A stretch of DNA of 57,897 nucleotides from Alphaproteobacteria bacterium (GTDB lineage Bacteria; Pseudomonadota; Alphaproteobacteria; Rs-D84), in assembly GCA_017466525.1 (NCBI GenBank), contig JAFTTY010000010.1:1-57897 (forward strand). Direction: 5' to 3'. Below the pieces are notes generated by a model. It searched no databases and was not told the origin of the DNA. It saw nothing but the letters and a program-made list of their open reading frames with translations. Position numbers and translations under genes: made by a program. Below are positions 15,232 to 41,608 of this stretch, one piece after another. How positions within the stretch are numbered: position 1 is the stretch's first letter; each line of letters begins with the position of its first letter.

Positions 15232-15253
15232 GGGGCAGGTTCCTGCCCCTTTT
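15232..15253 (+). terminator. terminator of the acyl-CoA ligase gene
   Basis: Stem GGGGCAG / CTGCCCC with loop GTTC, followed by TTTT. Confidence 0.75.
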
Positions 15254-15268
15254 AATTATAATTATCTC

Positions 15269-15298
15269 TTGACAAAACAAATATAAGTACTATATACT
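15269..15298 (+). promoter_or_regulatory. strong promoter of the 15331 gene
   Basis: Perfect TTGACA (15269-15274). The -10 is either TATATA (15291-15296, 16-base spacer) or TATACT (15293-15298, 18-base spacer). Confidence 0.7.
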
Positions 15299-15330
15299 GT
15301 GTGTGTAAATAAAAACATAGGGATTTCAAA

Positions 15331-15964: not shown

Positions 15965-18025
15965 ATGAAACGTGATTTAATTGATTTTTTAAATACAGAT
16001 TTACAATTTATCAAGGGTGTTGGCCCTGTTTTGGCGTCGCGTTTATGTGATGTGTTGGGCGGGCGTCGTGTCCTTGATTTTTTATTGCATCGCCCATCAT
16101 ATATTCGTGCGCGCGGTATATCTGAAACTGTCACAGATGTTACCCCGGGCGATACAATAACAATACCATTGCTTGTAAAATCGCATCGCATGGGTGGGGC
16201 ATTCGGTCGTGGTCGTCGTCGCCCAACCCAGATTATATGTAATGATAGTGCCGGCAACACGGTTACAATTCAATTCTTTAATGTAAATTATCTGGATTAT
16301 TGGTTAAAAAAATTACCAATTGGCGCATGGCGTATGGTGTCTGGTAAACTGGAACGCACTTCGCGCCCAACAATCAGTCATCCCGATTTTATTGAAGAAC
16401 CGCAAAACGCATCCAAAATTCCTGCAATTCAGGCAATCTATCCATCTGGCGAAGGTTTAACGCAAAAGGTTTTTGCAAACATCCGCGATCAGATTTTTGC
16501 GGCATTACCTGATAAATTGCGTGGTGAATCTGATGAACGTTGTATCGAATTTTTTGATGCATTACGTCACGTACATTTTCCAGAATCTGATACCGATTTA
16601 TCGCCAAACGCAACATATATGATAAAGTTGGCATATTGTGAACTGTACGCGCATCAGTGTGCAATCGCCATCAGTCGTCGCAATCGGACGGACATAAAAA
16701 ATCGTCGCGCATTACGCCCCCAGAAATATAAATTAATGGATAAATTTTATTCTGCCATACCATTTGAAATGACAGGCGCCCAGGCGCGCACCTGTGATGA
16801 AATTTTTGCAGATATGTCGCGTGATATTCCAATGATGCGTCTGGTCCAGGGTGACGTGGGCAGTGGAAAAACCATTGTCGCCTTGGCTGCCGCGGTCAAG
16901 ATGGCAGAAACTGGTGCGCAGACTGCCTTGTTGGCACCAACAGATACATTGGCGCAACAGCATTATACGAAACTAAAACCGCTGTGCGAAAAAATTGGTA
17001 TTGTATGCGAATGCCTGACCGGTCGTGACAAGGGGGCATCCCGTCGTGAAAAATTAACGTCTTTACGTTCTGGTCGTACGCGAATTGTTGTTGGCACACA
17101 TGCGCTGTTTTCAAATGATGTTGAATATCGTGATTTGGGACTGGTCATAATTGATGAACAGCATCGATTTGGTGTTTCGCAGCGTCAGGCCTTGCGAACC
17201 AAGGGTGACAATCCGGATTTATTGGCACTGTCTGCAACCCCGATTCCACGTACATTATCCATGACGATATATGGCGATATGGATATATCTATTATTAATG
17301 AAAAGCCGGCTGGTCGTAAACCCATCAAGACCACCAAGTTATCTGTATCGCGAATTATGGATTTGGTATCGCGTCTACGGGTTCAGGTTGATAACGGTGC
17401 GCGCGTATATTGGGTGTGTCCATTGGTAACGGAAAGTGAAGATGAAAACACGACATCAACCGCGGCTGTTGAACGTCATAAAATGCTGACGCAATATTTC
17501 CCTGCGGCGGGTCTGGTTCATGGTCAAATGGATAAAAAAGAACGTGACGCAGTCATGGCGAAATTTGCAGATATAAATTCTGATATGCCGATATTGGTCG
17601 CCACCACGGTAATAGAGGTTGGCATTGACGTCCCCCAGGCATCTATTATTGTGATTGAAAATGCAGAACGCTTTGGCCTGTCCGCATTGCATCAGTTGCG
17701 TGGTCGTGTTGGGCGTGGCGACACCCAGTCTTATTGTATTTTATTGTTTGGTCATAATATGTCCGATGATGGTGCGCGTCGCCTGGATATATTATGTGAA
17801 ACAGATGATGGATTTGTCATCGCAGAACAAGATTTAATGATGCGTGGCGTTGGTGAATTATTGGGAACGCGTCAAAGCGGTTGGTTGCACTATCATTTTG
17901 TAGATTATCGTGAACATCGGGATTTATTCAAGTTGGCATCGCGTGCCGCCCGTGATAATGATATTGATGATTGGGCAAATGACTTGATGTCCATATTTGA
18001 TTGTGGGGTGACGTTGGGTGCGTAA
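15965..18025 (+). CDS. recG: ATP-dependent DNA helicase RecG
   Basis: Branch-migration helicase that rescues stalled forks, 686 residues, the usual length. The N-terminal wedge/OB part includes LQFIKGVGPVLASRL and the fold near residues 55-140. The helicase motifs are in order: Walker A GDVGSGKT (about residue 300), DEQHRFG in place of the DEAD box, LSATPIPRTL, and the C-terminal ATTVIEVGIDVP and QLRGRVGRG motifs. No ribosome site precedes the ATG. Its stop overlaps the start of the following protease gene by eight bases, so the two are coupled. Confidence 0.96.
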   Translation: MKRDLIDFLNTDLQFIKGVGPVLASRLCDVLGGRRVLDFLLHRPSYIRARGISETVTDVTPGDTITIPLLVKSHRMGGAFGRGRRRPTQIICNDSAGNTVTIQFFNVNYLDYWLKKLPIGAWRMVSGKLERTSRPTISHPDFIEEPQNASKIPAIQAIYPSGEGLTQKVFANIRDQIFAALPDKLRGESDERCIEFFDALRHVHFPESDTDLSPNATYMIKLAYCELYAHQCAIAISRRNRTDIKNRRALRPQKYKLMDKFYSAIPFEMTGAQARTCDEIFADMSRDIPMMRLVQGDVGSGKTIVALAAAVKMAETGAQTALLAPTDTLAQQHYTKLKPLCEKIGIVCECLTGRDKGASRREKLTSLRSGRTRIVVGTHALFSNDVEYRDLGLVIIDEQHRFGVSQRQALRTKGDNPDLLALSATPIPRTLSMTIYGDMDISIINEKPAGRKPIKTTKLSVSRIMDLVSRLRVQVDNGARVYWVCPLVTESEDENTTSTAAVERHKMLTQYFPAAGLVHGQMDKKERDAVMAKFADINSDMPILVATTVIEVGIDVPQASIIVIENAERFGLSALHQLRGRVGRGDTQSYCILLFGHNMSDDGARRLDILCETDDGFVIAEQDLMMRGVGELLGTRQSGWLHYHFVDYREHRDLFKLASRAARDNDIDDWANDLMSIFDCGVTLGA

Positions 18026-19319
18026 GATTGTTTTATTTTTATTGTGTGCATTATTTTCGACACCTGTTCTGTCGGCGTCCCTGATTAACGACACAGAAAC
18101 AGAACGCGTTTTAATGAAATTAGTTTTGCCGTTGGCGCGCGCTGCGAACATTCCAGATAATCGATTAAAGATACATATTGTAAACGATGATGATTTTAAT
18201 GCCTTTGTTATGGGGGGCGACGATGTTTATGTGTATACTGGATTGTTGCGTCAAATAAAATCACCAGACGCATTACAGGCCGTCGTTGCACATGAATTAG
18301 GACATACGCTTGGTGGGCATATGGCCCAGATGTCCGAACGCATGAACGCGGAAATGAAACGCACAATGTTAATTCAGGCATTGGGCGTTGGTTTAATGGT
18401 TGCAGGTGGAAATCCATCCCTTGGCGCCGGTGTTATGGCGGGTGCAACCGGTGTCGCGCAACAGTCTATGTTGGCATTCACACGTGACGAAGAACGCATC
18501 GCAGACAATCTGGGGGTTGATTTAATGGTATCTGCAAAACAAAATCCACATGGTTTTGTGACGGTCTTGGAACAGATGCACGAACTAACCGGCACGATGG
18601 AGAGCAAGATTAATCCAAATCGAATAAACCATCCATTAACAACAGAACGTTTAAATAACGTACGTGCACGTATTGCCGATGTTGCGCCTGATTATAAGCC
18701 TAATAAAAGCGTGGAAAAATCACGCCATGCAGAATATGAATTGGTTCGTGCAAAATTGGTCGGGTATCTGGATGCGCCATCGCGTGTTCGTGAATTGTAC
18801 CCGTCGTCTGACATGTCAGATTCTGCACTGTATGCGCGCGCGATTGCGAACATGCGCGGTGGGAATTTGGATGGTGCCCGCATTGGGACACGCACATTAA
18901 TTGCCCGGAATCCTGATAATCCGTATTTTTATGAATTGCTGGGCGATATTGAATATCAGTTTGGCCATTATGACGACAGTGTCGATGCATACGAACGTGC
19001 GCTGGAATTGGCGGGCGACGCCCCCCAGATTCAAACGGCGTTGGCACTGGTTTTATCTGAACGCGCCCGACCAGATGACAAATTGCGCGCCATTGAAATG
19101 GCAAAGCGTTCATTGTTATCAGAACCTGCACCATTGACATATTGGGTTTTGGCGCGCGCCTATGGCGATAGTGATTCTGGGCGTCACGATTGGGCGATGG
19201 CAGAATATTATAACATGACCGGCGACACTAAAAACGTAAAGAAATATGCCAAACGTGCACAAAAAAAATTAAAGAAATCAGATTCTGAATATATCAAGGC
19301 TGGCGACCTGTTGAAATAG
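18018..19319 (+). CDS. periplasmic M48 metalloprotease with TPR repeats (BepA-like)
   Basis: A 433-residue exported protein. The start is GTG 18018, eight bases inside recG. A signal peptide (residues 1-20, ending VLSA) is followed by an M48 peptidase domain with zinc motif HELGH at 92-96 (AHELGHTLGGH) and the third ligand region DEERIADNLGVDL. The C-terminal half (about 265-400) is TPR repeats (GDIEYQFGHYDDSVDAYERAL). E. coli BepA, with this layout, checks assembly of outer-membrane proteins such as LptD. A similar quality-control role is likely. Confidence 0.9.
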   Translation: MRKIVLFLLCALFSTPVLSASLINDTETERVLMKLVLPLARAANIPDNRLKIHIVNDDDFNAFVMGGDDVYVYTGLLRQIKSPDALQAVVAHELGHTLGGHMAQMSERMNAEMKRTMLIQALGVGLMVAGGNPSLGAGVMAGATGVAQQSMLAFTRDEERIADNLGVDLMVSAKQNPHGFVTVLEQMHELTGTMESKINPNRINHPLTTERLNNVRARIADVAPDYKPNKSVEKSRHAEYELVRAKLVGYLDAPSRVRELYPSSDMSDSALYARAIANMRGGNLDGARIGTRTLIARNPDNPYFYELLGDIEYQFGHYDDSVDAYERALELAGDAPQIQTALALVLSERARPDDKLRAIEMAKRSLLSEPAPLTYWVLARAYGDSDSGRHDWAMAEYYNMTGDTKNVKKYAKRAQKKLKKSDSEYIKAGDLLK

Positions 19320-19342
19320 TCGCATTGTTGGATTTTTTTCTG

Positions 19343-19371
19343 TTGTTATTTTTTTTCAAATGTTCTAAATT
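19343..19371 (+). promoter_or_regulatory. possible parC promoter
   Basis: TTGTTA (19343-19348), 17-base spacer, TAAATT (19366-19371). The predicted start lies about three bases before the parC ATG, so the mRNA would have almost no leader, which agrees with the missing ribosome site. Confidence 0.4.
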
Positions 19372-19380
19372 TCTATCATT

Positions 19381-21612
19381 ATGAGCAAGGAAATTATCGA
19401 AAATATTGATTCTCAGCAGTTATCTGATGCATTATCAGAACGCTATCTGTCATACGCGGTCAGTACGATTGTATCGCGTGCTTTGCCCGACGTTCGCGAC
19501 GGGTTAAAGCCGGTTCATCGTCGAATTTTATATTCTATGTTGCGTCAAAAATTGTCGCCGAACGCTGCGTTTCGTAAATGCGCAACGGTTGTTGGTGACG
19601 TGTTGGGCCATTACCACCCACACGGGGACAGTTCTGTGTACGATGCGATGGTTCGTCTGGCCCAGGATTTCTCGGTTCGTTATCCCTTGATTGATGGTCC
19701 GGGAAACTTTGGAAACATTGACGGCGACCCCCAGGCGGCATATCGTTATACAGAATCAAAAATGACTGAGGCTGCCATGCTGATTATGGAGGGCCTGGAC
19801 GAAGACAGCGTTGACATGATGCCGAATTTTGATGGCACTACATTGGAACCTGTTGTTATGCCGGGCGCATTCCCGAACCTGTTGGCAAATGGTGGCATGG
19901 GTATTGCCGTGGGTATGGCAACGAATATCCCAACCCATAACGTGGCAGAGGTTTGCGATGCCCTGAACCTGGTTGTTGATAAACCTGATGCGACAACCGC
20001 CCAGTTTATCAAGAAAATGGTTGGGCCTGATTTCCCAACAGGTGGTGTTTTAATTGATAGTTTTGATACGATTGTAAAAAATTATGAAACGGGGCGTGGC
20101 GCATTTCGCGTTCGTGCACGTTGGGAAATCGAAGAACTGGAACGTGGTGCGTGGCAGGTCGTCGTTTCTGAAATTCCATATGGCATTGTAAAATCCAAAT
20201 TGGTTGAACAAATTGCGACATTAATTGATGCAAAAAAATTGCCATTGGTTGACGATATTGTCGATGAATCAACAACTGATGTTCGTATTGTTATCACGCC
20301 AAAGACGCGTAATATCCCGGCGGATAAAATGATGGCGCACTTGTTTGCGATGACGGATTTGGAATATCGCTTTAACATGAATTTCAATGTTATCGATTCC
20401 AAAGGTGCACCACGTGTCATGCCAATCGGCGATGTTTTACGTGAATTTATCGCACATCAAAAGACTGTTTTACGTCGTCGCACACAATGGCGTTTAAATA
20501 ACATCGCGCGTCGATTGGAAATCTTGGGTGGTTTGCTGGTTGTATACTTGAACCTGGATCGTGTAATTGAAATCATCAGAAATGAAGATGATGCCAAGGC
20601 TGTATTGGTTGCAGAATTTAATTTAACTGAGATTCAGGTAGAGGCGATTTTGAATACACGCCTGCGTTCATTGCGCAAACTGGAAGAAATGGAAATAAAA
20701 CGCGAAGACGCGGCCCTGCGCGCAGAACAAGAAAAATTACAGGCACTGTTGGCCAGCGAAGATGCCCAGAATGAACAGTTAAAGGCCTGGTTCAGCGATA
20801 TTAAAAAGACATATGACAAAAAGACAAAGTTGGGACGTCGTCGTACCACTTGGGCAGAACAAACCGAAGAAATTGTTGTTAATGCAGACGACTTTATCGA
20901 AAAAGAACCACTGACAATTATTTTATCAAAAATGGGTTGGATTCGTGCGGCCAAGGGGCATTTGGATTTAAATTCATTGGATTTGAAATTCAAAGAAGGC
21001 GACGAATTGCATACCGCGTTCCATGCAATGTCAATTGACAAGATTAATTTGTTCGGCACATCGGGGAAAATGTTTACATTATCTGCGAACGAATTGCCGT
21101 CTGCGCGTGGCTTTGGTGAATCTGTTCGCATGATGGCAGACATCAGTGCTGACGAAGACATTGTTCGCGCCTTTGTCTTGGACATGAATGCAAAGTATTT
21201 ATTGGTGTCGCGTCATGGAAACGGATTTATTGTTTCTGGTGAAAATTGCCTGGCACAAACCAAGAATGGAAAGCAGGTAATGAATACAGAACCCAAGAAT
21301 CCTGCACACATGTGTGTTGCTGTGACGGGTGACACAATTGCGATGTCTGGTTCCAATGATAAATTGCTGATATTCCCGACATCCGAAATCCCAGAAATGA
21401 CCCGGGGCAAGGGCGTGATATTGCAGAAATATAATGCTGAACGTACATTTGTCTTAGACATTATGTTCTTTGATGAAAAAGATGGTTTTGGTTGGACAAC
21501 TGGTCGTGGTACCACCAAGATGGACGATTGGACACCATGGCGTGCGAAACGTGCATCCCAGGGACGCACAGTTCCAGTTGGTTTCCCACGCAGTGGTAAA
21601 TTTGGGAAATAG
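19381..21612 (+). CDS. parC: DNA topoisomerase IV subunit A
   Basis: Type II topoisomerase subunit that cuts and rejoins DNA to unlink daughter chromosomes, 743 residues. The catalytic tyrosine is Tyr123 in AAYRYTE. The quinolone-determining loop HPHGDSSVYDAM (80-91) carries Ser84, Ser85 and Asp88, a susceptible-type pattern. The C-terminal wheel domain is short and lacks an obvious GyrA box, which favours ParC over GyrA; the length also fits alphaproteobacterial ParC. There is no ribosome site before the ATG. A small membrane-protein gene follows nine bases after the stop. Confidence 0.92.
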   Translation: MSKEIIENIDSQQLSDALSERYLSYAVSTIVSRALPDVRDGLKPVHRRILYSMLRQKLSPNAAFRKCATVVGDVLGHYHPHGDSSVYDAMVRLAQDFSVRYPLIDGPGNFGNIDGDPQAAYRYTESKMTEAAMLIMEGLDEDSVDMMPNFDGTTLEPVVMPGAFPNLLANGGMGIAVGMATNIPTHNVAEVCDALNLVVDKPDATTAQFIKKMVGPDFPTGGVLIDSFDTIVKNYETGRGAFRVRARWEIEELERGAWQVVVSEIPYGIVKSKLVEQIATLIDAKKLPLVDDIVDESTTDVRIVITPKTRNIPADKMMAHLFAMTDLEYRFNMNFNVIDSKGAPRVMPIGDVLREFIAHQKTVLRRRTQWRLNNIARRLEILGGLLVVYLNLDRVIEIIRNEDDAKAVLVAEFNLTEIQVEAILNTRLRSLRKLEEMEIKREDAALRAEQEKLQALLASEDAQNEQLKAWFSDIKKTYDKKTKLGRRRTTWAEQTEEIVVNADDFIEKEPLTIILSKMGWIRAAKGHLDLNSLDLKFKEGDELHTAFHAMSIDKINLFGTSGKMFTLSANELPSARGFGESVRMMADISADEDIVRAFVLDMNAKYLLVSRHGNGFIVSGENCLAQTKNGKQVMNTEPKNPAHMCVAVTGDTIAMSGSNDKLLIFPTSEIPEMTRGKGVILQKYNAERTFVLDIMFFDEKDGFGWTTGRGTTKMDDWTPWRAKRASQGRTVPVGFPRSGKFGK

Positions 21613-25073: not shown

Positions 25074-26315
25074 TTATTTCGCAAATGAATAGTCCATTTC
25101 CAGATGATTTGGATTATATGTTCCATTCATAATCGCCAGTGTATCTTCTACGATAACCAGTTCTTCGTTTGTTGCAATCATCAAGATTTTAACACGACTG
25201 TCATCTGTACTGATAACTGCCTGGTCGACACCTTTGCGTGCCAATGCCTGGGCATTCTTTTCCAAATCTAATTTGATACCCAGTTCTTCTAATCCTTCAC
25301 AGAATTTTGCACGCAGATAGTCGTCGTTTTCACCAACGCCTGCGGTAAATACCAACGCGTCAACATGCCCCAGTTCCGCCATAAACGCACCGATGTATTT
25401 TTTTACATTGTGTGCTTCCATATCAATAGCCAAACGGCACAGGTCGTTTGTGTCCTTGTTGCCTTCTACATCGCGACGGTCGGCAAAGCATTCTGTAATA
25501 CCCATCAGACCAGAATCCTTGTTCAGATGCTTTTGCATTTGATCTGCTGTGATACCCAATCTGTTCATAACATACAATACAACACCTGGGTCCAAGTCAC
25601 CTGGACGCGTACCCATTGTCAAACCAGACAACGGTGTCATACCCAATGAAGTATCAACAGATTTACCATTGCGAATTGCGGTTGCAGACGCGCCCGAACC
25701 GATATGCAACGTAATCAGATTGCATTGATCGGCTGGTTTGCCCAACATTTTTGCTGCAACTTTTGATACATATAAATGGCTGGTCCCGTGGAAACCATAG
25801 CGACGCACGCCCAATTCTGTGTACCACGCACGTGGCACGGCATAGCGATACGCATAGTCTGGCATTGTCTGATGGAATGCGGTATCAAATACTGCAACCT
25901 GTTTTGCATTTGGCAATAATTGCTGTGCTGCGACAATACCAACCAACGCGGCTGGGTTATGCAGTGGTGCAATCGCAGATAATTCTTCGATTGTCTTGAT
26001 AACTTCGTCATTGATTTCAACAGATGACGCAAATTTTTCACCACCCAGAACAACGCGATGACCAACGCCCTTGATTTCATTCATGTCAACAGACGCTTCG
26101 CGCAACATGAACATAACGACATTTAGTGCTTCGTTATGATTTTGCATACTGCATTCTTTCTTTTGTTTTGTTCCGTCTGGATACTTTTGTGTGACAAAAG
26201 AATCCGGCAGACCGATTTTTTCAACGTTTCCACCAACGATGGCTGTTTTTGTATCTGCGTCAAACACCTGGTATTTCAGGGACGAAGAACCACAATTTAA
26301 TGCAAGTATGTACAT
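25074..26315 (-). CDS. ackA: acetate kinase (copy 1)
   Basis: Acetate + ATP to acetyl phosphate + ADP, run in reverse to make ATP in fermentation; cytoplasmic. 413 residues, slightly longer than the usual 400. The ASKHA motifs are present: N-terminal LNCGSSSLKY, GVGHRVVLGG (substrate Arg), catalytic Asp in VFDTAFHQTMP, GFHGTSH, HIGSGASATAI and the late FTAGVGEND. An AAGGA ribosome site precedes the ATG. No phosphotransacetylase gene (pta) is adjacent. A close paralogue lies at 55466-56722. Confidence 0.96.
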   Translation of the reverse strand: MYILALNCGSSSLKYQVFDADTKTAIVGGNVEKIGLPDSFVTQKYPDGTKQKKECSMQNHNEALNVVMFMLREASVDMNEIKGVGHRVVLGGEKFASSVEINDEVIKTIEELSAIAPLHNPAALVGIVAAQQLLPNAKQVAVFDTAFHQTMPDYAYRYAVPRAWYTELGVRRYGFHGTSHLYVSKVAAKMLGKPADQCNLITLHIGSGASATAIRNGKSVDTSLGMTPLSGLTMGTRPGDLDPGVVLYVMNRLGITADQMQKHLNKDSGLMGITECFADRRDVEGNKDTNDLCRLAIDMEAHNVKKYIGAFMAELGHVDALVFTAGVGENDDYLRAKFCEGLEELGIKLDLEKNAQALARKGVDQAVISTDDSRVKILMIATNEELVIVEDTLAIMNGTYNPNHLEMDYSFAK

Positions 26316-26345: not shown

Positions 26346-26374
26346 AGCATAGCAATGTTTTTTTCAGAATTCAA
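26346..26374 (-). promoter_or_regulatory. ackA copy 1 promoter
   Basis: Minus strand TTGAAT (26369-26374), 17-base spacer, TATGCT (26346-26351). Confidence 0.5.
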
Positions 26375-26943
26375 TAGTAAACTCGGAATAAAATGCACCA
26401 ATTTTCATCTGTGATTTCCGTTTGAACGCCCGTGTCATGATGGCGAACCCAGTACTTTTGACAACCGGTCAGCAGGAACAAATTCATTCCATTTTGGTTT
26501 TGTTCACAGTTTGGAATCGGATTTGCATGATTCCCCACACCAAATGCCCATACTTCGTCACCGACGGCATATCCTGCCTCTGCATTTTGACAGACCAGGG
26601 CGCACTGCACAAATTTTGGCTTTTCTGTGTCCCCCAGAATATAATTCAGTCCTGCAACCCTGCTGTTAATCTGTATTGGTGTTGTTTCGTGTACTGTAAA
26701 TGGGGCAGGCGCGTGTTGTGCCACGATATTTGCCCAGAATTCATCAGATACATTTTCTATATCGAAATTACCGGTGTTGGTTGCCGCATCATTCGCGCGT
26801 GCAAGTGTGAATCCACCCAGCGTTTCACCATCATGCACACGCAATGTTTTTGCGTCTGTATCCATTGTGATTTCGCCGGGCATACCGGTAAAGTTATCAT
26901 TTTGTGCGGCCGAACCGCGTCTAATTTGTAAAACACGTGTCAT
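26371..26943 (-). CDS. phage tail-fibre-like protein with Mtd N-terminal-type domain (copy 1)
   Basis: A 190-residue protein. The first 50 residues (LQIRRGSAAQNDNFTGMPGE, then TLRVHDGETLGG) match the beta-prism head that opens the Bordetella phage major tropism determinant and many phage tail fibres. The rest is a strand-rich domain with five Cys and several Trp, unlike the second copy at 35419-35997, which shares only the N-terminal part. There is no signal peptide and no neighbouring phage structural gene. An AAGGA-type ribosome site precedes the ATG. It probably works as a trimeric receptor-binding or surface-exposed module; how it would leave the cell is unclear. Confidence 0.75.
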   Translation of the reverse strand: MTRVLQIRRGSAAQNDNFTGMPGEITMDTDAKTLRVHDGETLGGFTLARANDAATNTGNFDIENVSDEFWANIVAQHAPAPFTVHETTPIQINSRVAGLNYILGDTEKPKFVQCALVCQNAEAGYAVGDEVWAFGVGNHANPIPNCEQNQNGMNLFLLTGCQKYWVRHHDTGVQTEITDENWCILFRVYY

Positions 26944-27343: not shown

Positions 27344-28063
27344 TTAGCGGATGATTTGTACCTTTTGGTTTATTAAAGACATTCTTATTTGTTGTTTTTG
27401 TCTTGAAACCTCGATTTGAACACCATTACCAGCTATTTCAATAATTGACCCCGAAGTATTAATTTGTAAATTTTCTATTAATAGATGGTAGCCCCTTGTG
27501 GGGTATAACAATTGAGACTGCTTTTGTATTTCTGTTTGCCATTTTTTCTCGATGTTTTTGTATGATTCTGACGAAAGATTTTCGTGATGGCGTTCTTTAG
27601 AATAAATAGTTTCTGTCATATTGTCTTCAGAATAACGAGATAACGAGCGTACCTGCATTTCCAATGCCTGCAACTGATCGTGAATATGTTTGTATTGTGC
27701 CATATGTTTTTTCAACTCGCGCTCTCGCGAAGAAAAACCAATAATCCAAGAGAGTTTGTCATATTCATCGTCCTTAAGACGCTCGTATTTGCTAAACACA
27801 TCACTATGCAAAGAGTAAAATTTATTACGATTCTTTTGAGCATCTATATACGATTGTTTAAGTGCGGGAATAGACTCTCTAAATTTTTTCCGTTTTTCAT
27901 TTATCGCTGCTGATTCTCTAGCTCGTTCCTGTTGTTTTATTTTATTGATATGGTCTTGTCTAACTAATGCACCCAAAAAAGTATCGTATTCTTTTTTTGT
28001 AATTTCTTTAAAAGTGAAATCTTTCAAACTCCCCAGGGCGTATGGAATAAAAATTGTACTCAT
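27344..28063 (-). CDS. coiled-coil protein of unknown function
   Basis: A 239-residue protein from ATG 28063 (AAGGA ribosome site eight bases upstream). Charged and helical between residues about 20 and 190, with coiled-coil character. The last 45 residues look strand-rich (YHLLIENLQINTSGSIIEIA). No signal peptide or membrane helix. It follows the 806-residue coiled-coil gene by 66 bases on the same strand, so the two may be one transcript and their products partners. Family not recognised. Confidence 0.65.
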   Translation of the reverse strand: MSTIFIPYALGSLKDFTFKEITKKEYDTFLGALVRQDHINKIKQQERARESAAINEKRKKFRESIPALKQSYIDAQKNRNKFYSLHSDVFSKYERLKDDEYDKLSWIIGFSSRERELKKHMAQYKHIHDQLQALEMQVRSLSRYSEDNMTETIYSKERHHENLSSESYKNIEKKWQTEIQKQSQLLYPTRGYHLLIENLQINTSGSIIEIAGNGVQIEVSRQKQQIRMSLINQKVQIIR

Positions 28064-28129
28064 ACAAAATCCTTTTTTAGGATTGTGGCACATGTAATAC
28101 ATTTGTCAATTATAAATTAACCCAAAAAA

Positions 28130-30550
28130 TCAAGCTGTATATGAATAATTGCTTAAATAATCATTTATATACTGCTGTTTTTTTGCGTCGAATTTCCCTT
28201 GTGCACCTTTTGCGCTCAGACCGCGTCCGCCCCAGTTATACATCTTTCCTGTACGTGTGTTGCGCCCCGTTTCCAGCATGTCCCAGTACGCCATCAATTC
28301 TTTATATTGGTCTTTGTGGTTGTTGTCCCAATCACGTATTTCTTCATCGCGTTTACTAATTTGTTCGCTTAGTTCTTCGATACTGTTTTTCGCGCTTTCG
28401 TATTTTTTTACACGCGATTTCATGTCATCAAGGCTATCTTGTTCTTGCTGCAAGTCGTTTTCCCGTCGTTCCATGTCGGTAACTGCCTGCTGTTGATTTG
28501 CCCAGTTTGGATTATTTGTAATATTATTAAGATTATTTCGCGACTGTCGCAGTTCTTGCGCAATTTCTGTTCTTCGATTTTGCATTTCTATTTTCTGTTG
28601 CAACAATGCATTTGTACGAAATTGTTTTTCCGCATCCGTCATTTGTGTGTCGATTTGAATTTGGTTTATTTTATCATTCAACTTTTTGATATCTCTTCTT
28701 AACTTTGCGCCTTCCTGTCGTAATTGAGGTATCGCAGCATTTAAATTATTATAGGTATCAACGTTTGTCTTTGCGTCCTTATAAGACTGCTGTTCTTTAT
28801 CATTATTTATTTGATTTTTTATGCCGGTTAAACGTTGTTCGTCATTATCCAGATCGGCTTTTTTTTGTCCCAGATTACTATCTGTTATACGCTGTTGTTG
28901 TGTCAGACCGTTGTTGGCATCTCGCAAATCCTGTGTTTTTTGTTGAATTTCCTGATTTGCCATTGCGTCTTTGTGTCGGCGCTCTGCCTCTGCATCTTGT
29001 TTTTCTGTCGCGTTTTTATTTGCCCAATTGTCACTTGCTTTCTTCAGATTCTTGTCGCGTTCGCCCTTAAATTTACTGCCCGACAGGTTGTATGCATTTA
29101 CGGCCATTGTTATACCATAACCCAATCCTGTAATTGCATATTTGATACCTTTGTCCAGTGCTTTTGTCACAAATGCCATGCCCTCGTTTTTATTCCATGA
29201 CAAATCTTTATCTGAAAATATACTCACATCAACTTTTTTCAGTGCGTCCATGGTTTTACTGGTCGTGTATCCATACTTGATAACGGACATAACCTCCATC
29301 GCAGATTTGGCTTCTTCGACTTTGCCGTCGCGTACCGCCGTCATAATCATTTCTTGGATAATTGCGCGCATTTGGCGCCCGTTTTGCAGTGCGCCCGCAA
29401 ACGCCTTGGGCATTGTTGCCTGCAGTTCTGTCAGTGTTTTAATTGTCCAATCAAAATGTTCTGTTGCTTTTGGTGATTTATACAGTAATCCTTTTTTGAT
29501 TGTGTCTGCATTTTTTAATACGCCATCCAGACCGTCGGTTGGTTTGACTTTTGCTTTGTGTAATGCCTCAACAATACTTTTTGCCTGTGGTGAAAAATAC
29601 ATACGGTCACCACTAAACTTGATGTACTTTGCAAATGTATCTTCGTATGTGTCTCCAACAAATTTTGAGACTTGCTGCCATGGATTCAGTTCATCGTCAC
29701 GTTTTGGCGGAACGTAGTCTTTACTTTCTTTGTTATCGTAATCGACATTGTTTTTTGCCTTTTCGTATGCGTTTTTAACCTTATCCGATGGGAATGCCTC
29801 GCGTATATCTTTGGTGCGATATATCTTGCGCAAAATTATATCAAATTCAGTCTTGAATGCATCCAATCTGTTTGGATCAATGGTTGTGTCTTCAAACCCA
29901 GTGCCAATTTTATCAACAGCAGGCGGTGTTAATCCTTGCAACGTATCGCCCGGATAACTTAAATATTCTGCAAGCGTTGTCAGTGTTTTACGAAATTTTG
30001 TGTCAGTATTGTATTTTTTGTCCTTGATTCCGTCTTGTAAATCCTTAAATGTAAAGTCTGTATCATTTACAAGCCCCCAATCGCGTCGCAACACTGCCTT
30101 CATCTGTGACGCATTATCTTTCAGGAACTGCCCCAATGCCTCTATCTGTTGTTCGGCTTCTTGATTTGCTTTAGCAGGTTCAAATAATTTCCCCACACCA
30201 AAATATTCATCCAAGAAATCGATAACTTTACTCTTATTTACAGAGAAGTCTACACTATTAGAGAAATTCTTCTTGTTGGCCGCCATTTCACGAAAGGCGC
30301 GTTGAAATTCTAAAAATAGCTTTTTTAACTCATCTTCCGCCAACATACTTGCATCAGGAATGTCATTTTGCACCAATTGCCCATTGTTGTCGTGCATCAG
30401 CTGCTTCTTCCAGTCCTTCATATGGCCACGGAAATCATCGTTTTTAGCATAGGCATCAAATTGTGCGCGTTGTGCAGGTGGCATATTGTTGAAATGCATT
30501 TGCATAAAATATTGCAATAAAAAATCATTCATATTTAATTTATCTGCCAT
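28130..30550 (-). CDS. large coiled-coil protein of unknown function (806 residues)
   Basis: Starts at ATG 30550 after an AAAGGT ribosome site. The N-terminal 60% is mixed alpha-helical and contains no motif that I know. A glycine-rich hydrophobic segment (GIKYAITGLGYGITMAVNAY, residues about 470-490) could be membrane-active. From about 510 to 770 it is a long, very charged coiled coil with many Q, N, D and K residues. It ends with a Gly/Tyr-rich tail. No signal peptide. The pattern (globular head, single hydrophobic patch, long coil) recalls secreted effectors, phage tape-measure proteins or structural scaffolds, but none can be argued from sequence alone. It sits in the accessory stretch with phage-like genes. 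Confidence 0.65.
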   Translation of the reverse strand: MADKLNMNDFLLQYFMQMHFNNMPPAQRAQFDAYAKNDDFRGHMKDWKKQLMHDNNGQLVQNDIPDASMLAEDELKKLFLEFQRAFREMAANKKNFSNSVDFSVNKSKVIDFLDEYFGVGKLFEPAKANQEAEQQIEALGQFLKDNASQMKAVLRRDWGLVNDTDFTFKDLQDGIKDKKYNTDTKFRKTLTTLAEYLSYPGDTLQGLTPPAVDKIGTGFEDTTIDPNRLDAFKTEFDIILRKIYRTKDIREAFPSDKVKNAYEKAKNNVDYDNKESKDYVPPKRDDELNPWQQVSKFVGDTYEDTFAKYIKFSGDRMYFSPQAKSIVEALHKAKVKPTDGLDGVLKNADTIKKGLLYKSPKATEHFDWTIKTLTELQATMPKAFAGALQNGRQMRAIIQEMIMTAVRDGKVEEAKSAMEVMSVIKYGYTTSKTMDALKKVDVSIFSDKDLSWNKNEGMAFVTKALDKGIKYAITGLGYGITMAVNAYNLSGSKFKGERDKNLKKASDNWANKNATEKQDAEAERRHKDAMANQEIQQKTQDLRDANNGLTQQQRITDSNLGQKKADLDNDEQRLTGIKNQINNDKEQQSYKDAKTNVDTYNNLNAAIPQLRQEGAKLRRDIKKLNDKINQIQIDTQMTDAEKQFRTNALLQQKIEMQNRRTEIAQELRQSRNNLNNITNNPNWANQQQAVTDMERRENDLQQEQDSLDDMKSRVKKYESAKNSIEELSEQISKRDEEIRDWDNNHKDQYKELMAYWDMLETGRNTRTGKMYNWGGRGLSAKGAQGKFDAKKQQYINDYLSNYSYTA

Positions 30551-30666
30551 CTTTGCGCACCTTTGTTTTTCTTATCAATTAATTATAGTGCATTTTTGAC
30601 AAAAATTCAATATTTACTGTACTTTTTTTGTCGGCACGGTGTATACTGATTGCAAAAGGAAGAAAA

Positions 30667-31842
30667 TTGACGCGTTTATTATTCTCTCTATACGGTTTTT
30701 CGTTTTTTAATAAGTTCTTGTTGTTGACGCCTGTCTATGCGATTTTTATGCAACAAAACGGCGTCAGCGACATTCAACTGTCGACAATGTTTATTATTTC
30801 GGCGACCGCGACCGTGTTGGGACAACTGCCAATTACGTTTATTACAAATCGCATTGGCCAGCGTTGGGCAATGGTATTTGGTCAGTCTTTAAAGATGTGG
30901 GCTGTTTTGCTGTGGTTATTTTGGCCGACATATGCCGGATTTGCAATTGGTATGGTCTTGTGGGGATTGCAGGCCGGATTTCGCAGTGTTGCATTCGAAG
31001 GTCTGATGTATGACAGTATCCGCGCCCGTGGCCGTGCCCGTGATTATTCGCGTATTTTGGGACGCAAGTATACATATGAATCAATTGGTGTCGCGCTGTC
31101 GGCGTGCGGTTCGCTGTTGATGTTCTTGGGCTATGAATGGGTGACGTGGGCATCTGTGGTCGCGATATTGGTGTCTATGTTGTGTCTGATAATGGTGCCG
31201 CGCCTGCCAAGCGGTGCTGCAAAACCTGTTGCCGCCCCAGAATTCCGCCAGGTTTTTCGTACAGGTATAAAAGTGTGCCTGAAAACGCCGTGCCTGATGT
31301 CGATAATGTTGCTGACATTATTGGTGGTAAATATTCCTTTCTTAGACGATTTTTTAAGCCCGATTGGCCTGCAGCTTGGCTTGTCAACGGAATATGTTGG
31401 TGCGATATCGTTCTTTTTGTTGGGGTGCGCCACCGTGGGCCAGCGTTTTGCCTATCGCTTTAACAAATTACCAGATTGGGTTTTGTACATGTTGATTGGC
31501 TGCGTCGGCATTGGTTATTTGGCATTTGCTGCGATTTACACAATTGGCGCATTGTGGATTCTGGGGTTGGCGTACATGCTGTTTTATGGCTTGTTTAATT
31601 TATTCTATGCCCAGTTTCAGCATTTAATCCCAACACGTCATCGCTCTGTTATCTTGTCGCTTTACACAACGTTGACTTATCTGGTTTATATTGCGGTGTG
31701 TGGCATTATTGGTCTGGGCGCACAATTGGGCAGTTGGCGTTACAGTATCGCAATTTTAGGTGTCTTGATGTTGATGTTGTGTGCATGGTCGGTGGTTTAT
31801 GTGCGCCGTCGTTGCGAACTGGATGCTGGTGTCAGGTCTTAG
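30667..31842 (+). CDS. MFS transporter
   Basis: Major facilitator with about twelve membrane helices, 391 residues from TTG 30667. That start follows AAGGAAG closely; an upstream TTG at 30628 would lie ahead of a -10-like TATACT (30642-30647). The loop between helices 2 and 3 (TNRIGQRWAMVFGQ) matches the MFS G-x-x-x-D-R-x-G-R-R signature in weakened form. Substrate unknown; the N-terminal half (helix 1 SLYGFSFFNKFLLLTPVYAIFM) resembles small drug-efflux or metabolite exporters. Inner membrane. Confidence 0.82.
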   Translation: MTRLLFSLYGFSFFNKFLLLTPVYAIFMQQNGVSDIQLSTMFIISATATVLGQLPITFITNRIGQRWAMVFGQSLKMWAVLLWLFWPTYAGFAIGMVLWGLQAGFRSVAFEGLMYDSIRARGRARDYSRILGRKYTYESIGVALSACGSLLMFLGYEWVTWASVVAILVSMLCLIMVPRLPSGAAKPVAAPEFRQVFRTGIKVCLKTPCLMSIMLLTLLVVNIPFLDDFLSPIGLQLGLSTEYVGAISFFLLGCATVGQRFAYRFNKLPDWVLYMLIGCVGIGYLAFAAIYTIGALWILGLAYMLFYGLFNLFYAQFQHLIPTRHRSVILSLYTTLTYLVYIAVCGIIGLGAQLGSWRYSIAILGVLMLMLCAWSVVYVRRRCELDAGVRS

Positions 31843-31890
31843 GCGAACGTTCCTATACATATTGCCACATGTTTTTTGTAAAATTTGTGC

Positions 31891-32571
31891 ATGAAGATAA
31901 GTTTTCGCACAATATTTTTAAAGTCTTTACCGTACCTGATGTCAATCGCCGGTGGCATTATATTGTATACAGGTGCAATTGATAACGCGCCAAATGATAA
32001 TCTGCGTGATTTGATAATCGACATTTCTGGATCTTTATTGTCGATACCGTTGGTGTTCTTGTTATATGATTATATGAATTCGCGTGTTAATCGCCAGATG
32101 AAAAAGACCATTGCAAACAGTGTTTCAGACAAATTGAATACATTAATGTTGGGGCTGGTGTTTATGTTGCGTGAATCCATGGGGGTGCGCAGCAAACTAA
32201 CCACAGAAAACTTGAATCGAATGTTGATATGGCGGACCCCAGAAATTTCACGTCGCTTAAAAATCACCCCTGGGGTATTGGATAAATTAAATGCCTATCA
32301 TAATGATTTAGACACATTACTGTATCGCAACAGCCAAAGCAGTGTTTTGTCGCCGCAACAGATTCAGATATTGTCTGCCTTGGCGCGTGACATGACGCAT
32401 TTGATTAATGAAAATAAGTTCCATCATCGCAATCGTCACATGTCTGCAAAGTATATAGAAAACATAATGTCGCGCATGCTGGATTGGCTGGATTCAGACT
32501 CGGTCGCGATGCTAAATCTGCAACAGCATTTATCAGACGGCGCATTGGCTGGGAACGGTGGCAAAAAATAA
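31891..32571 (+). CDS. membrane protein of unknown function
   Basis: A 226-residue protein with two N-terminal hydrophobic helices (residues about 10-30 and 45-62) and a cytoplasmic, helical C-terminal part of about 160 residues. The ATG at 31891 has no ribosome site; a TAAAAT (31879-31884) ends six bases before it, so the message may be leaderless, though no good -35 is visible. No family recognised. It is followed by a strong hairpin and tRNA-Lys. Confidence 0.6.
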   Translation: MKISFRTIFLKSLPYLMSIAGGIILYTGAIDNAPNDNLRDLIIDISGSLLSIPLVFLLYDYMNSRVNRQMKKTIANSVSDKLNTLMLGLVFMLRESMGVRSKLTTENLNRMLIWRTPEISRRLKITPGVLDKLNAYHNDLDTLLYRNSQSSVLSPQQIQILSALARDMTHLINENKFHHRNRHMSAKYIENIMSRMLDWLDSDSVAMLNLQQHLSDGALAGNGGKK

Positions 32572-32678: not shown

Positions 32679-32754
32679 GGGGACATAGCTCAGTTGGTAG
32701 AGCAAATGACTTTTAATCATTGGGTCCAGGGTTCGAGTCCCTGTGTCCCCACCA
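32679..32754 (+). tRNA. tRNA-Lys (UUU)
   Basis: Complete cloverleaf with acceptor GGGGACA / TGTCCCC, anticodon TTT in loop CTTTTAA, T-arm CAGGG TTCGAGT CCCTG and an encoded CCA at 32752-32754. Its 3' end is repeated 187 bases downstream. Confidence 0.95.
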
Positions 32755-32946
32755 GAAATAAGAAAACCGCCGCATGGCGGTTTTTTTATTTTTGTATGGG
32801 GCGCGGACGAGAACCCAAAAAGGGTTCGGAACGTCAGTTGGTGAAAACAAGCGTATGCGCCGTTTGAACCTTACGAAGTGAATGGGGCCCATCGCGCCAA
32901 CGTGGCGCAGATGGGGATTTACAGTCCCTGTGTCCCCACCAGAAAT
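32736..32946 (+). repeat. 24-base direct repeat of the tRNA-Lys 3' end (att-like)
   Basis: The last 19 bases of tRNA-Lys plus five bases beyond (32736-32759) recur perfectly at 32923-32946. The second copy lacks the rest of the tRNA. Each copy is followed by its own different intrinsic terminator. This is the layout left when an element integrates at a tRNA 3' end. The 163 bases between hold small hairpins (GAACCC AAAA GGGTTC; GCGCC AACGT GGCGC) but no gene. Confidence 0.7.
32764..32788 (+). terminator. tRNA-Lys terminator
   Basis: Stem AAACCGCC / GGCGGTTT, loop GCAT, followed by TTTT and further T. Confidence 0.85.
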
Positions 32947-33091: not shown

Positions 33092-34207
33092 ATGAGTGAT
33101 ATTTGGGATGGTGTCACCTGGAATGAAAATGGCGAATTGGTTCTGGGCATCTACGCAGAACCGCCAATCGCAGAAACAGATGAAGAATTGGAAGAATACG
33201 AAGAAGAATTTGAACATACATACGCAACTGTTGATTGTGGTGGTGAATGTGGCGGATGCGTTGCATTGATTGTTGACGGGGTTGTTGTATCTGGTCCACC
33301 GTTTCATCCTCATTGCGGATGTTCTTTGAGTCCACAAGATATCAAAAACGCAGAACAGCATAAATCAAACCTGCATGGCACGGTTGCCCCGGACAGAAAT
33401 GTTGATACACGTGATGTAGAATGGTTAAAAAAATCACTGACCCAGTTGGATTGCTATGAACCAGATACCCGTGCCGGCGAAAGTGCTGACAATCCAAACC
33501 CGTATCCGAACCAGAAACTGTTTGATGCGATTGAAAAGTTCAGAAAATTACAAAAAATCAAAGAGCGTGGCGCTGTCAAACCCGGCCACTGGACAGAAGT
33601 AAAAATAAATCAAGAACTGGAAAAGAAACAATACGAGAAAAACGATATGAAAAATATTTTGACCGATAATTTTAAAAAAGATGTAATGGCACACGAAGGA
33701 GTCAGAAAAAGTCCATACACAGATTCCAAAGGTTATTTAACAATTGGAATTGGCAAAAACATACATAAACTAAATGATTTTTTAAAGTTAGATATTATAA
33801 ATACAAACACTGGTACAGAATTAACCGAAGTAGAGAAACAAAATATTCATTCAAAAATGGTATCAGAAATAAATAACGGTACTTTTAGAGAATATGATTA
33901 TGCACACATACAAATATCGCCAAATCAAATTTATAACCAGTTTAACCAACAACTGGAAATCGCATACAATGAATTAAACAAAAAAATAACGAATTTTATA
34001 GATATGCCGACACCCATACAGCAGGCATTGGTAGATATGCAATTTAATATGGGAAACAACAGGTTTTCTGAACGATATTGGCCAAAGTTATTTGAAGCCA
34101 TCAAAAATAAAGATTGGGAAACCGCAGCAAAGGAAGCATCTGAAAGAAAAGATGTACAAAAAGCTCGTCGTGAATGGACAAAACGAATGTTTCTAAAGGC
34201 AAACTAA
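33092..34207 (+). CDS. mosaic lysozyme (Cys/His motif, peptidoglycan-binding-like domain, GH24 lysozyme)
   Basis: A 371-residue protein with no signal peptide. An acidic N-terminus (to about 45) is followed by a metal-site-like segment with Cys49, Cys53, Cys56, then PPFHPHCGC (69-77), which resembles the H-P-x-C-x-C motif at the end of phage minor head proteins. A peptidoglycan-binding-like stretch lies at about 108-175 (LFDAIEKFRKL, AVKPGHWTE). The C-terminal domain (about 190-371) is a T4-type GH24 lysozyme with the triad Glu202, Asp211 and Thr217 (HEG, YTDSKGYLTIGIG). It cuts peptidoglycan glycan strands. Its end overlaps the convergent lipoprotein gene by four bases. Either a phage relic or a deployed lytic protein. 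Confidence 0.8.
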   Translation: MSDIWDGVTWNENGELVLGIYAEPPIAETDEELEEYEEEFEHTYATVDCGGECGGCVALIVDGVVVSGPPFHPHCGCSLSPQDIKNAEQHKSNLHGTVAPDRNVDTRDVEWLKKSLTQLDCYEPDTRAGESADNPNPYPNQKLFDAIEKFRKLQKIKERGAVKPGHWTEVKINQELEKKQYEKNDMKNILTDNFKKDVMAHEGVRKSPYTDSKGYLTIGIGKNIHKLNDFLKLDIINTNTGTELTEVEKQNIHSKMVSEINNGTFREYDYAHIQISPNQIYNQFNQQLEIAYNELNKKITNFIDMPTPIQQALVDMQFNMGNNRFSERYWPKLFEAIKNKDWETAAKEASERKDVQKARREWTKRMFLKAN

Positions 34208-35418: not shown

Positions 35419-35997
35419 ATGTCAAGACAAATACAAATTCGGCGTGGAACTGCGACCGAACACGAAAATTTTACTGGCGCCATTGGCGAAGTCACCATGG
35501 ACACCACAAATAAAACATTGCGCGTACATGATGGCGAAACCTTGGGCGGTATTGCGATGGCGCGTGCAGACGCACAACCAGACCTGTCGCAAATCGGTTC
35601 CGAAAACGCCCATAAATTAATTGGCAATCGTATCTGGATAAGTGACGAGGTATCACTATCATCTGCCGCAAATATTATTATTTCGCATAACCTAAATCTG
35701 GAAAAACCGTATATGGCAACTGCAATACCATATTTAAAATTTTATGAAAGTATGTGTGGGTACTCTGTCGGCGATATCATTAGTCAGTTTGGGTTTGCCA
35801 TAAATGCGTATACCCCAGGTGATGTTTTGGTTTCCAGCAGTGATTTTGGTAAATTTTTAAATATAGACACAAACACCGTAACGATTCCCCGATGTCAATA
35901 CGGTAAAATATATTTACCGAACAAGTCAACCGGTTTGCCGTTTGTGCAGATTTTTACAGCCAGCAATGTAAAACTGTTTGTAAAAATTATTTATTAA
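35419..35997 (+). CDS. phage tail-fibre-like protein with Mtd N-terminal-type domain (copy 2)
   Basis: A 192-residue protein from ATG 35419 (AAAGGAT ribosome site). The N-terminal 50 residues (IQIRRGTATEHENFTGAIGE, then TLRVHDGETLGG) closely match copy 1 at 26371-26943 and the N-terminal domain of phage tropism determinants. The C-terminal 130 residues differ from copy 1: a strand-rich fold with few Cys. No signal peptide, no adjacent phage genes. The conserved head with a variable tail suggests interchangeable receptor-binding ends. It has its own promoter with a hairpin-rich leader and a strong terminator. Confidence 0.75.
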   Translation: MSRQIQIRRGTATEHENFTGAIGEVTMDTTNKTLRVHDGETLGGIAMARADAQPDLSQIGSENAHKLIGNRIWISDEVSLSSAANIIISHNLNLEKPYMATAIPYLKFYESMCGYSVGDIISQFGFAINAYTPGDVLVSSSDFGKFLNIDTNTVTIPRCQYGKIYLPNKSTGLPFVQIFTASNVKLFVKIIY

Positions 35998-36268: not shown

Positions 36269-37324
36269 TCAATTCCCCTTATAATTTTTAATTGTTGAAC
36301 AATAAATAGGTCCTGTATTAATTATTGCGCTTGCCCAACTTAATCCGACACCAAATCCTGCAATTGCAAGACGCAAAGAATTCTTAGAAATCTCATCGGC
36401 TAAATTGTCTGCGATTGTTGCTGGGATGGATGCCCCACATTGATTCCCATATTTTGAAAGGGTCTCTGTTGGCATTTTATCTTTATTGATATTCAATTTT
36501 GATGCAATTGTATTCAATATCAATTTATTTGCTTGGTGTAAAACATAATAATCAACTTGGTCGCTTGTTAAGCCTGCAAAGTCCAGATTTTCTTGGATGC
36601 TTGGGTAAATGCGATTGATCGCGAAATCAAAAATTCGTCCTCCGTCCATTTTTGCCTGATAACGAAATTGACCATTTTCATAAAAGTCTTCTTTCTTGGG
36701 TGGGGTCTTAAATCCACCAGCAGAACAAATCAATGCATCATATCCGGTACCATCAGATTGTATATTAAAGTATGTCGCGGGGGCCTGTTCATCATAATCG
36801 ATTAGTGTGGCACTGCCCGCATCACCAAAAACGGGCGCGGAATGATTAATGAACATATCTGTAAATTTTGAGAAACTGTCGCCAACCAGTAGTAAGACAC
36901 GCTTGCATCCATTGTTCAACAACATTCCTGCCTGATACAACCCCAGGACATATCCAGAACATGCTTGCGGAATATCCATAACTACACAGCTCTCAGATAA
37001 ACCCAAGCGTTGGTGTAAAACATATGACGTTGCCGGCATCAGATAATCGGGTGTATAGCTGATAAACAGCAACGCATCAATAGATGTTTTTTCGATTCCT
37101 AATTTGCTGATTAAATCTTCGGCTGCCTCAAAACATAAATCGGATGTCATTACGTGTGGTTCAGAAACACGTCGTTTTAAAAAACCAGAAGATTCGATAA
37201 CGCGTTTTATTCGCTGTTCGTTACCGCCATACAATTCTTTGTCATCCAATAGAGACAACTCCTTTGGGGGCACAACAACGGAAATCCCCCTTATCTTTGC
37301 GTTTTTAATAACTGCTTTAACCAT
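36269..37324 (-). CDS. 3-oxoacyl-ACP synthase III family protein
   Basis: KAS III-type condensing enzyme, 351 residues, with the full triad Cys122 (QACSGY), His263 (VLHQAN) and Asn294 (KYGNQCGAS). It joins an acyl-CoA to malonyl-ACP. At 351 residues it is longer than FabH (about 317), with an extended N-terminus, as in the KAS III-like enzymes of secondary metabolism and O-antigen clusters. The gene overlaps the upstream acyltransferase gene by eight bases and abuts the ACP gene, so it probably makes a special acyl group for the polysaccharide rather than starting bulk fatty-acid synthesis. Confidence 0.9.
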   Translation of the reverse strand: MVKAVIKNAKIRGISVVVPPKELSLLDDKELYGGNEQRIKRVIESSGFLKRRVSEPHVMTSDLCFEAAEDLISKLGIEKTSIDALLFISYTPDYLMPATSYVLHQRLGLSESCVVMDIPQACSGYVLGLYQAGMLLNNGCKRVLLLVGDSFSKFTDMFINHSAPVFGDAGSATLIDYDEQAPATYFNIQSDGTGYDALICSAGGFKTPPKKEDFYENGQFRYQAKMDGGRIFDFAINRIYPSIQENLDFAGLTSDQVDYYVLHQANKLILNTIASKLNINKDKMPTETLSKYGNQCGASIPATIADNLADEISKNSLRLAIAGFGVGLSWASAIINTGPIYCSTIKNYKGN

Positions 37325-37883
37325 TGTTTTCCTCTAAATATTGTTGTTCTAGTTCTAAAATATGCTTACTTCTATCCATTATTGGTCGGGCAGGTATACC
37401 AAAATATACCTTCCAGGGTAGCGTTGGCTTCATCACCAGGCTCATCGCGCCAACAGATGTGCCTTCGGCAATATTTGCGCCAGGAAAGACCATGCTGCCA
37501 GCACCGACAATGCTGTGTCTGCCAATTGTTATAGACTTTGGTTCGTGTTTCACAAATTTTAACGGAATTGTTGCATTTGTCATATATTGCCCAGAATAAT
37601 CATCTGTGTTAACAAAAACCGTACATCTTGGCGCTAAACCAGAAAAGTCTTCAAACGTAATTAATGCACCATCAGTAGACAATACAGAACAATAAACAGA
37701 TAAATGCACGTTATTATGTATTTCGACATGGTTTCCTACGGTACAAAAGTCATCTATTTGAACATTATTGCCCAGGGAAATGCGTTCCGGTCTATAAAAA
37801 ACAGCCTTGTCACTGATTTTTAAATTTTTGCCGTATGATTTAAAGCCGATTTCTTTTATCTGTTCTTCTGTTAAAAAAGCCAT
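37317..37883 (-). CDS. hexapeptide-repeat acyltransferase
   Basis: Left-handed beta-helix acyltransferase, 188 residues. Hexapeptide-type repeats run through the protein (ISLGNNVQIDDFCTVGNHVEIHNNVHLS, then ITIGRHSIVGAGSMVFPGANIAEGTSVGAMS), ending in the loop and helix typical of the NodL/WbbJ group (VYFGIPARPI). The catalytic His is probably in IGRHSIVGAGS or the preceding loop. It most likely moves an acyl group from CoA or the neighbouring ACP to an (amino)sugar. It starts at ATG 37883 behind AAGGAAAAT and overlaps the KAS III gene. Confidence 0.87.
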   Translation of the reverse strand: MAFLTEEQIKEIGFKSYGKNLKISDKAVFYRPERISLGNNVQIDDFCTVGNHVEIHNNVHLSVYCSVLSTDGALITFEDFSGLAPRCTVFVNTDDYSGQYMTNATIPLKFVKHEPKSITIGRHSIVGAGSMVFPGANIAEGTSVGAMSLVMKPTLPWKVYFGIPARPIMDRSKHILELEQQYLEENNG

Positions 37884-37971
37884 AATTTTCCTTTAAAATT
37901 TGTCGTTCGCATTATAACGCTGATTAATTAGCCAAGGCAACAAATAATTTAATGTTTTTTGTGTATATTCC

Positions 37972-41607: not shown

Positions 41608-41608
41608 T

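Follow-up and report, generated by a model that had tools for sequence, protein, structure and literature searches.

Gene transfer agents (GTAs) are known in few lineages. RcGTA of Rhodobacter capsulatus is a long-tailed (siphovirus-type) GTA, and its capsid, tail and fibre families differ from those of the system described here. According to the consulted part of PMC10218006, the tail fibre rcc00171 and the head spike fibre rcc01080 of RcGTA bind the organism's own capsular polysaccharide; the present system is likewise alphaproteobacterial, and its fibres are likewise predicted to bind the surface sugar of their own host. In the consulted part of PMC12946183, a short-tailed GTA is first reported, in January 2026: FpGTA of Faecalibacterium, a podovirus-like GTA for which both particles and 8.4–8.9 kb of packaged DNA were shown. 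Like the system considered here, FpGTA belongs to a gut bacterium and has a structural operon of short-tailed type that is kept across the genus, and its second, unlinked operon carries fibre or receptor-binding genes together with lysis genes. The host of FpGTA is Gram-positive, however; a T7-type split terminase, Mtd_N fibres, a linkage to glycan clusters and Enterousia are not described in that part of the paper.

The Mtd protein of Bordetella phage BPP-1 (PDB 1yu0–1yu4) shares 55% sequence identity with the first 49 residues of the fibre protein here named class A, but the C-terminal domain is unmatched, no retroelement was found, and the protein does not belong to a live phage. T7-like phages have in common with the present system the portal, capsid, scaffold, tail-tube and terminase families as well as the N-terminus of the fibre (gp17), but here the terminase is encoded by two genes, the fibre is made up of an adaptor and an Mtd_N protein, and the loci are scattered on the chromosome. 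No description of such a particle in Enterousia or Rs-D84 was recognised in the open-access literature; PMC12306168, which assigns Enterousia, with its genomes of around 1 Mb, to the order Rs-D84, makes no mention of phage.

The stretch of DNA analysed, referred to as the window, comprises 57,897 nucleotides and belongs to an assembly (G000) that consists of 42 contigs totalling 944,600 bases, with 93% completeness and 5.6% contamination. Relatives of the class-A gene were found in metagenome-assembled genomes of Alphaproteobacteria, many from the guts of sheep, deer, buffalo and other animals, one of them being Candidatus Enterousia avistercoris, and the host, an uncultured organism, is probably Candidatus Enterousia or close kin. 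Contig 1 of the assembly (L185, 9 kb), which carries a second copy of the T7-like locus described below, has 99.5% identity to species G011 and is regarded as a contaminant. The window itself is distinct from G011, as the class-A gene of L076, assigned to that species, is 52% identical to that of the window. The features of the window are as follows:

25074–26315, minus strand: acetate kinase (ackA), a host gene and the fixed downstream neighbour of class A (PF00871, 494 bits)
26371–26943, minus strand: class-A Mtd_N fibre protein, 190 aa (PF18454, AlphaFold AF2 model, conserved neighbours, dN/dS)
28130–30550, minus strand: c4, a helical protein of about 800 aa (806-aa family) upstream of class A (AF2, all-helical)
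30628–31842, plus strand: MFS transporter (PF07690, 72 bits)
31885–32571, plus strand: membrane protein (conserved gene order)
35419–35997, plus strand: class-B Mtd_N fibre protein, 192 aa (PF18454, 56.1 bits; hhalign of the C-terminus)
36269–42751, minus strand: surface-glycan cluster (LPS/O-antigen type), convergent to class B (profile scan)

The sequence-only reading from which this analysis started had described the gene at 26371–26943 as a stand-alone Mtd-N-like tail-fibre gene, the first of two with different C-terminal domains. The gene is real, but it is coded on the minus strand (26943–26371, with an ATG start), and the plus strand there does not encode the protein. Both products far exceed the Pfam cut-off for Mtd_N (PF18454; 47.8 bits for class A and 56.1 bits for class B, cut-off 26.3), which bears out their Mtd-N-like identity, and the N-terminus of a PHROG "tail protein" was matched in both. 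Counting paralogues, a check proposed in the same reading, gave exactly two Mtd_N copies in the assembly, both inside the window. Taken together with the evidence given below, we consider it fairly probable that the two proteins serve as receptor-binding fibres on a T7-like (short-tailed) phage particle that has been domesticated, most likely a GTA.

Class A comprises an Mtd_N head (approximately residues 6–41) and a predicted C-terminal beta domain (approximately residues 82–190). In the AF2 model, built from 59 sequences, the mean pLDDT was 87 and that of the C-terminal domain 92–98. Residues 7–48 of the model aligned with Bordetella Mtd (VIA-align Z 3.8–4.0, 46–48% identity), and the best fold matches of the predicted beta domain at residues 82–190 were weak, with tail and baseplate proteins among them: a pseudaminidase domain was the best found (Z 7.3, 3.3 Å over 96 residues), followed by weak matches to baseplate and tailspike domains, including the phiKZ (Z 5.7) and P1 (Z 5.6) baseplates. 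A named fold for the C-terminus was rejected, as these matches are too weak (Z 7.3 at best); no C-type lectin was among the fold matches listed for this domain.

The C-termini of the two proteins had been called unrelated, which does not apply to the pair in the window: a profile of the class-A C-terminus (59 sequences) aligned with that of class B in hhalign (probability 75, E 2.6e-5, score 34.2), compared to scores of at most 16.5 in 20 shuffles, and the claim was rejected for this pair. Across the genus it stands, since class-B C-termini are swapped, and the class-A profile scored only 9–12.6, as for unrelated sequences, against all of 10 other C-termini of the class-B kind. The proposed logic, in which the Mtd_N head stays constant and the receptor-binding ends are exchanged, thus holds across the genus; the exchangeable class-B C-terminus often contains the motif WYRKYKSGW-EQGG.

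A diversity-generating retroelement (DGR) would be another source of such variation, with the two Mtd_N genes as its targets as in phage BPP-1, and is brought to mind by the Mtd_N domain common to both genes and BPP-1 Mtd and by a reverse transcriptase (RT) on contig 41 (L190 138–1124). This is the only RT of the genome; it is small, group II-like or unclassified, far below any curated cut-off, and unlinked to the Mtd_N genes. No template repeat was found for the class-A 3' end in the whole assembly, nor for the class-B 3' end in four stretches tested. Furthermore, the class-A C-terminus is under purifying selection: the median dN/dS was 0.165 for the whole gene (38 pairs), 0.094 for the N-terminus (37 pairs) and 0.166 for the C-terminus (38 pairs). 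The DGR is not supported, as no template repeat was found within this scope and the RT is unlinked and group II-like, and we regard it as extremely improbable.

Class A typically has a single chromosomal address, between c4 and acetate kinase. In 64 public class-A loci, two of them cut or fragmentary (L115, L133), ackA lies directly downstream in 60 (exceptions L096, L115, L130, L133) and c4 upstream in 58 (exceptions L074, L095, L097, L108, L130, L133). The MFS transporter and the membrane protein (30628–32571, plus strand) flank the c4–class A–ackA block in divergent orientation, an arrangement that is conserved. In congeners lacking Mtd_N, c4 and ackA are direct neighbours, without a recognised gene between them, in 9 of 13 stretches; in the remaining four (G019, G040, G043, G045) the site is rearranged or ackA falls outside the stretch. 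The c4 protein, found in 93 of the 114 genomes of the order Rs-D84 but in none outside the host's family, is a candidate particle protein. Its AF2 model is all-helical, and fold searches returned only generic coiled coils, which are uninformative. As the main partner of Mtd_N it was rejected, because most Mtd_N-negative genomes of the family also carry it.

This fixed address, far from the portal in most genomes, and the occurrence of c4 without class A could also suggest that class A has left the particle and now acts for the host, as an adhesin or a glycan-binding protein produced together with c4 and acetate kinase. On visual inspection, however, class A shows no evident signal peptide, and among the matches listed the gene is confined to genomes with the short fibre adaptor introduced below. 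Moreover, in G014 and L074 class A directly adjoins the portal cluster, and in L128 the two share one 20 kb stretch; in L048 and L074 the portal cluster occupies the position of c4 at the class-A site. An adhesin role thus appears very unlikely.

Several other features were observed around this block. Class A and c4 are separated by an ORF of 252 aa (27344–28102, minus strand) that has no relative in 20 congener stretches. The window encodes two acetate kinase paralogues 29 kb apart (25074–26315 and 55466–56722, both on the minus strand), of which only the former has an adjoining class-A gene. Within 32679–32946, a tRNA-Lys is accompanied, 187 bp downstream, by a second copy of its 3' end with flank (25 bp, 1 mismatch), a duplication like that of an attachment site left by a lost element. 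The product of 33092–34207 is a lysozyme of phage type (PF00959, 39 bits; phrog endolysin) whose N-terminal part is rich in Cys, and the gene may be a particle lysis gene; a homologue is found near class A in G010 (L042 6945–7529).

In 16 of the 18 loci examined (all but L034 and L044), a surface-glycan cluster ends with class B, which is oriented convergently to it. Among the neighbours there are glycosyltransferases, DegT aminotransferase, GDP-mannose dehydratase and WavE; profiles were run on nine neighbours and all nine counted as glycan-type, L036 falling below the family cut-off and L037 just at it, and those of six loci (L157, L166, L088, L100, L103, L105) were judged by reading the sequences. 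In the window, the cluster encodes a KAS III-like protein, a hexapeptide transferase, WbqC, two GT2 enzymes, a DegT aminotransferase and a GT1 enzyme. One-piece fibres likewise end glycan clusters in L179 and L182, where the adjoining gene was scanned as a glycosyltransferase, and in L184, where the cluster was assessed by reading its sequences and the single scanned gene is a radical SAM protein; no recognised glycan cluster lies beside the one-piece fibre of L180.

The sequence-only reading had also stated that the window holds no tail, baseplate or RT gene. None was indeed recognised there, but a set of T7-like head, packaging and tail genes is present in the same assembly, on the minus strand of contig 27 (L052) around the host gene dnaB, and adjoins several class-B genes in relatives:

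18819–19646, minus strand: major capsid
18547–18777, minus strand: small head protein
17949–18467 and 16218–17933, minus strand: tail tubes
15283–15828, minus strand: fibre adaptor
14697–15347, minus strand: terminase ATPase
10513–11382, minus strand: terminase nuclease
9255–10538, minus strand: portal, followed by a small membrane protein

The capsid (PF19821) scored 240 bits and the portal (PF12236) 276 bits. In relatives, a scaffold-like gene precedes the capsid gene (PF05396, 33.9 bits in a congener's locus). The adaptor has a gp17 N-terminal domain, the congener protein in L048 matching phrog_1640 (E 1.6e-15) and scoring 22.2 bits for PF03906, just below the cut-off of 25.2. The terminase is encoded by two genes, for an ATPase and a nuclease, which map to columns 270–460 and 465–708 of phrog_38; the Walker A and nuclease motifs are present in 26 of 26 genomes examined in the host's family, and in other families the terminase is split wherever both halves were recognised (L134, L136, L137, L141, L142, L144–L146). 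Outside the order, a terminase match of 469–521 aa was found in three loci of the class (L191, L192, L195), which we read as unsplit. The genome thus encodes a major capsid, a portal, tail-tube proteins A and B, a T7-type adaptor and a two-chain terminase with its motifs kept. Between the two terminase genes, dnaB and two more genes lie on the other strand; this dnaB is single-copy in 23 of 25 genomes, the other two being a broken frame and the present assembly with its contaminant contig. A conserved small gene upstream of the scaffold gene (L056 16401–16811, same place in L053–L057) has a weak match to a cell-wall hydrolase (PF07486, 18.8 bits, below the cut-off) and is a candidate endolysin. 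Between the scaffold and capsid genes, a histone-like ORF with a lysine-alanine-proline repeat (L056 17785–18120) could be a DNA-condensing particle protein.

The portal (PF12236) was found in 108 of the 114 genomes of the order (16 of 18 genera), in one copy in 106 of these, and in none of 14 control genomes. Mtd_N is present in 57 of the 114 genomes and missing from 57. All but one of the positive genomes carry the portal, the exception (G033) being 72% complete, and in 17 of them an Mtd_N gene lies at most 1.4 kb from it. In the host's family (96 genomes), and among the matches listed, a short adaptor occurs in all 46 Mtd_N-positive genomes and in one of the 50 negative ones (G092, a broken frame of 122 aa), and 41 of the negative genomes have a one-piece fibre (at least 262 aa), against 5 of the positive ones. 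Outside the family, an adaptor of 150–296 aa is found in 10 of 11 Mtd_N-positive genomes. On a host-gene tree of 26 genomes the Mtd_N and adaptor traits each change six times, and in independent pairs they change together in five of five, though with only five pairs (p 0.0625). The description of the Mtd_N gene as stand-alone is therefore correct for the window but not for the relatives, in which it is tied to the T7-like locus by adjacency and by co-occurrence with the adaptor. That the Mtd_N proteins belong to the T7-like particle is, in our view, very likely.

Over unsaturated pairs, dN/dS was 0.09 for the portal (5 pairs), 0.11 for the capsid (53) and 0.16 for the terminase nuclease (6), with dnaB (0.05, 6 pairs) and ackA (0.09, 6 pairs) as reference genes; synonymous sites were saturated for the terminase ATPase, tail tube B, the adaptor and c4. 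Virion and ackA distances correlated over 22 genomes (Mantel r 0.57, reached in 0 of 9999 permutations; ackA against dnaB, r 0.66), but host and virion trees have only 10 of 23 splits in common, so that descent of the particle locus is mainly vertical, with noise or some exchange. In a sample of the class Alphaproteobacteria, the portal family was found in 102 of 385 genomes, about a quarter, and was for that reason rejected as an order-specific marker. Outside the order (L191–L198 among them), the portal occurs in at least four genomes of 1.1–1.5 Mb from family f95. The carriers across the class may hide further domesticated particles.

Portal relatives are thus common in Alphaproteobacteria, and the locus might be a decaying or intermittently active prophage shared by descent, with the Mtd_N genes as leftover tail-fibre cargo. 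In IMG/VR (best 80 of 279 portal matches), 49 relatives had at least 57% identity, on contigs of at most 21 kb; all 49 carry host dnaB, and a free virus bearing this set of genes was thus not encountered. The next 31 of these 80 contigs (43–48% identity) look phage-like, one with an unsplit terminase of 498 aa, which lends the prophage some support. The best portal identity in phage databases was 42%, the next 32%. No IMG/VR contig carries the whole class-A protein, seven matches reaching residue 75 and one of them residue 104, and 0 of 55 matching phage records cover 80% of it. Reading the ORFs of the 20 kb stretch L052 by eye revealed no replication or integration genes; PF00940 had no match in 40 relatives, but its control likewise matched nowhere, so this absence is uninformative.

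Rather than a contiguous element with an integration module at a variable site, the genes occupy several distinct places on the chromosome that are conserved and, in the genus, interrupted by dnaB. The reading as a prophage pair was rejected because the Mtd_N neighbourhoods consist of conserved host genes and a contiguous prophage was not found. One recognisable prophage holding both genes, which the sequence-only reading had named as the observation that would speak against it, was not found, as the linked locus is order-wide, chromosomal and placed around single-copy dnaB in the genus. With genes that are near-universal, nearly always single-copy, intact in their motifs, low in dN/dS and spread over at least two or three places, a prophage is improbable. 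On our best reading of the sequences, the particle genes seem to sit at scattered, vertically kept loci.

A tailocin, i.e. a tail without a head, was rejected, as capsid, portal and terminase are present. Three features of a GTA were found: the genes are host-encoded and of clade-wide descent, as indicated by the portal count, the dnaB locus and the Mantel correlation, though not by all splits; those for capsid, portal, tail and packaging are intact, with the small terminase not identified; and they are dispersed over the dnaB locus (contig 27), the c4/ackA locus and the glycan-end locus (both in the window). We consider that the particle is probably a GTA. The same genes could instead be kept for a job other than DNA transfer, such as killing or lysing neighbours by means of the capsid, or serving as a decoy in defence, and the Mtd_N fibres would then do the aiming. 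Glycan-linked, swappable fibres would suit the targeting of rivals too, a split terminase could reflect altered packaging, and DNA transfer is here a proposal. However, the capsid, the portal and the active sites of both terminase chains have been retained, with low dN/dS where measurable, and would be needless in a pure killing device, which makes a role of this kind rather unlikely.

For the GTA, particle production, glycan binding and DNA transfer are proposed by analogy to described systems. The short adaptor would sit on the tail tube and hold the Mtd_N head of one or both fibres, and the C-terminal beta domain would bind a cell-surface sugar, by analogy to RcGTA and FpGTA. With the class-B gene kept at the end of its own glycan cluster, fibre and glycan would be swapped together, which would direct the particle to cells that carry the same surface, and class A, kept beside c4 and ackA, would be the constant, perhaps genus-wide binder. 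The particle would then deliver packaged chromosomal DNA between kin. A stricter version, in which the entire order maintains a DNA-delivering T7-like GTA with a two-chain terminase that is locked to serotype, with the class-B fibre and the glycan cluster inherited and exchanged as a unit and DNA traded only within a surface type, is put forward tentatively.

If true, a T7-like GTA spread over an order whose genomes measure about 1 Mb would imply that even strongly reduced bacteria retain a DNA-exchange machine, and a fibre gene travelling with a glycan cluster would provide a simple, testable genetic basis of kin-limited exchange. The split terminase, with its two active sites on separate chains, would furthermore be a natural test of the coupling between motor and nuclease.
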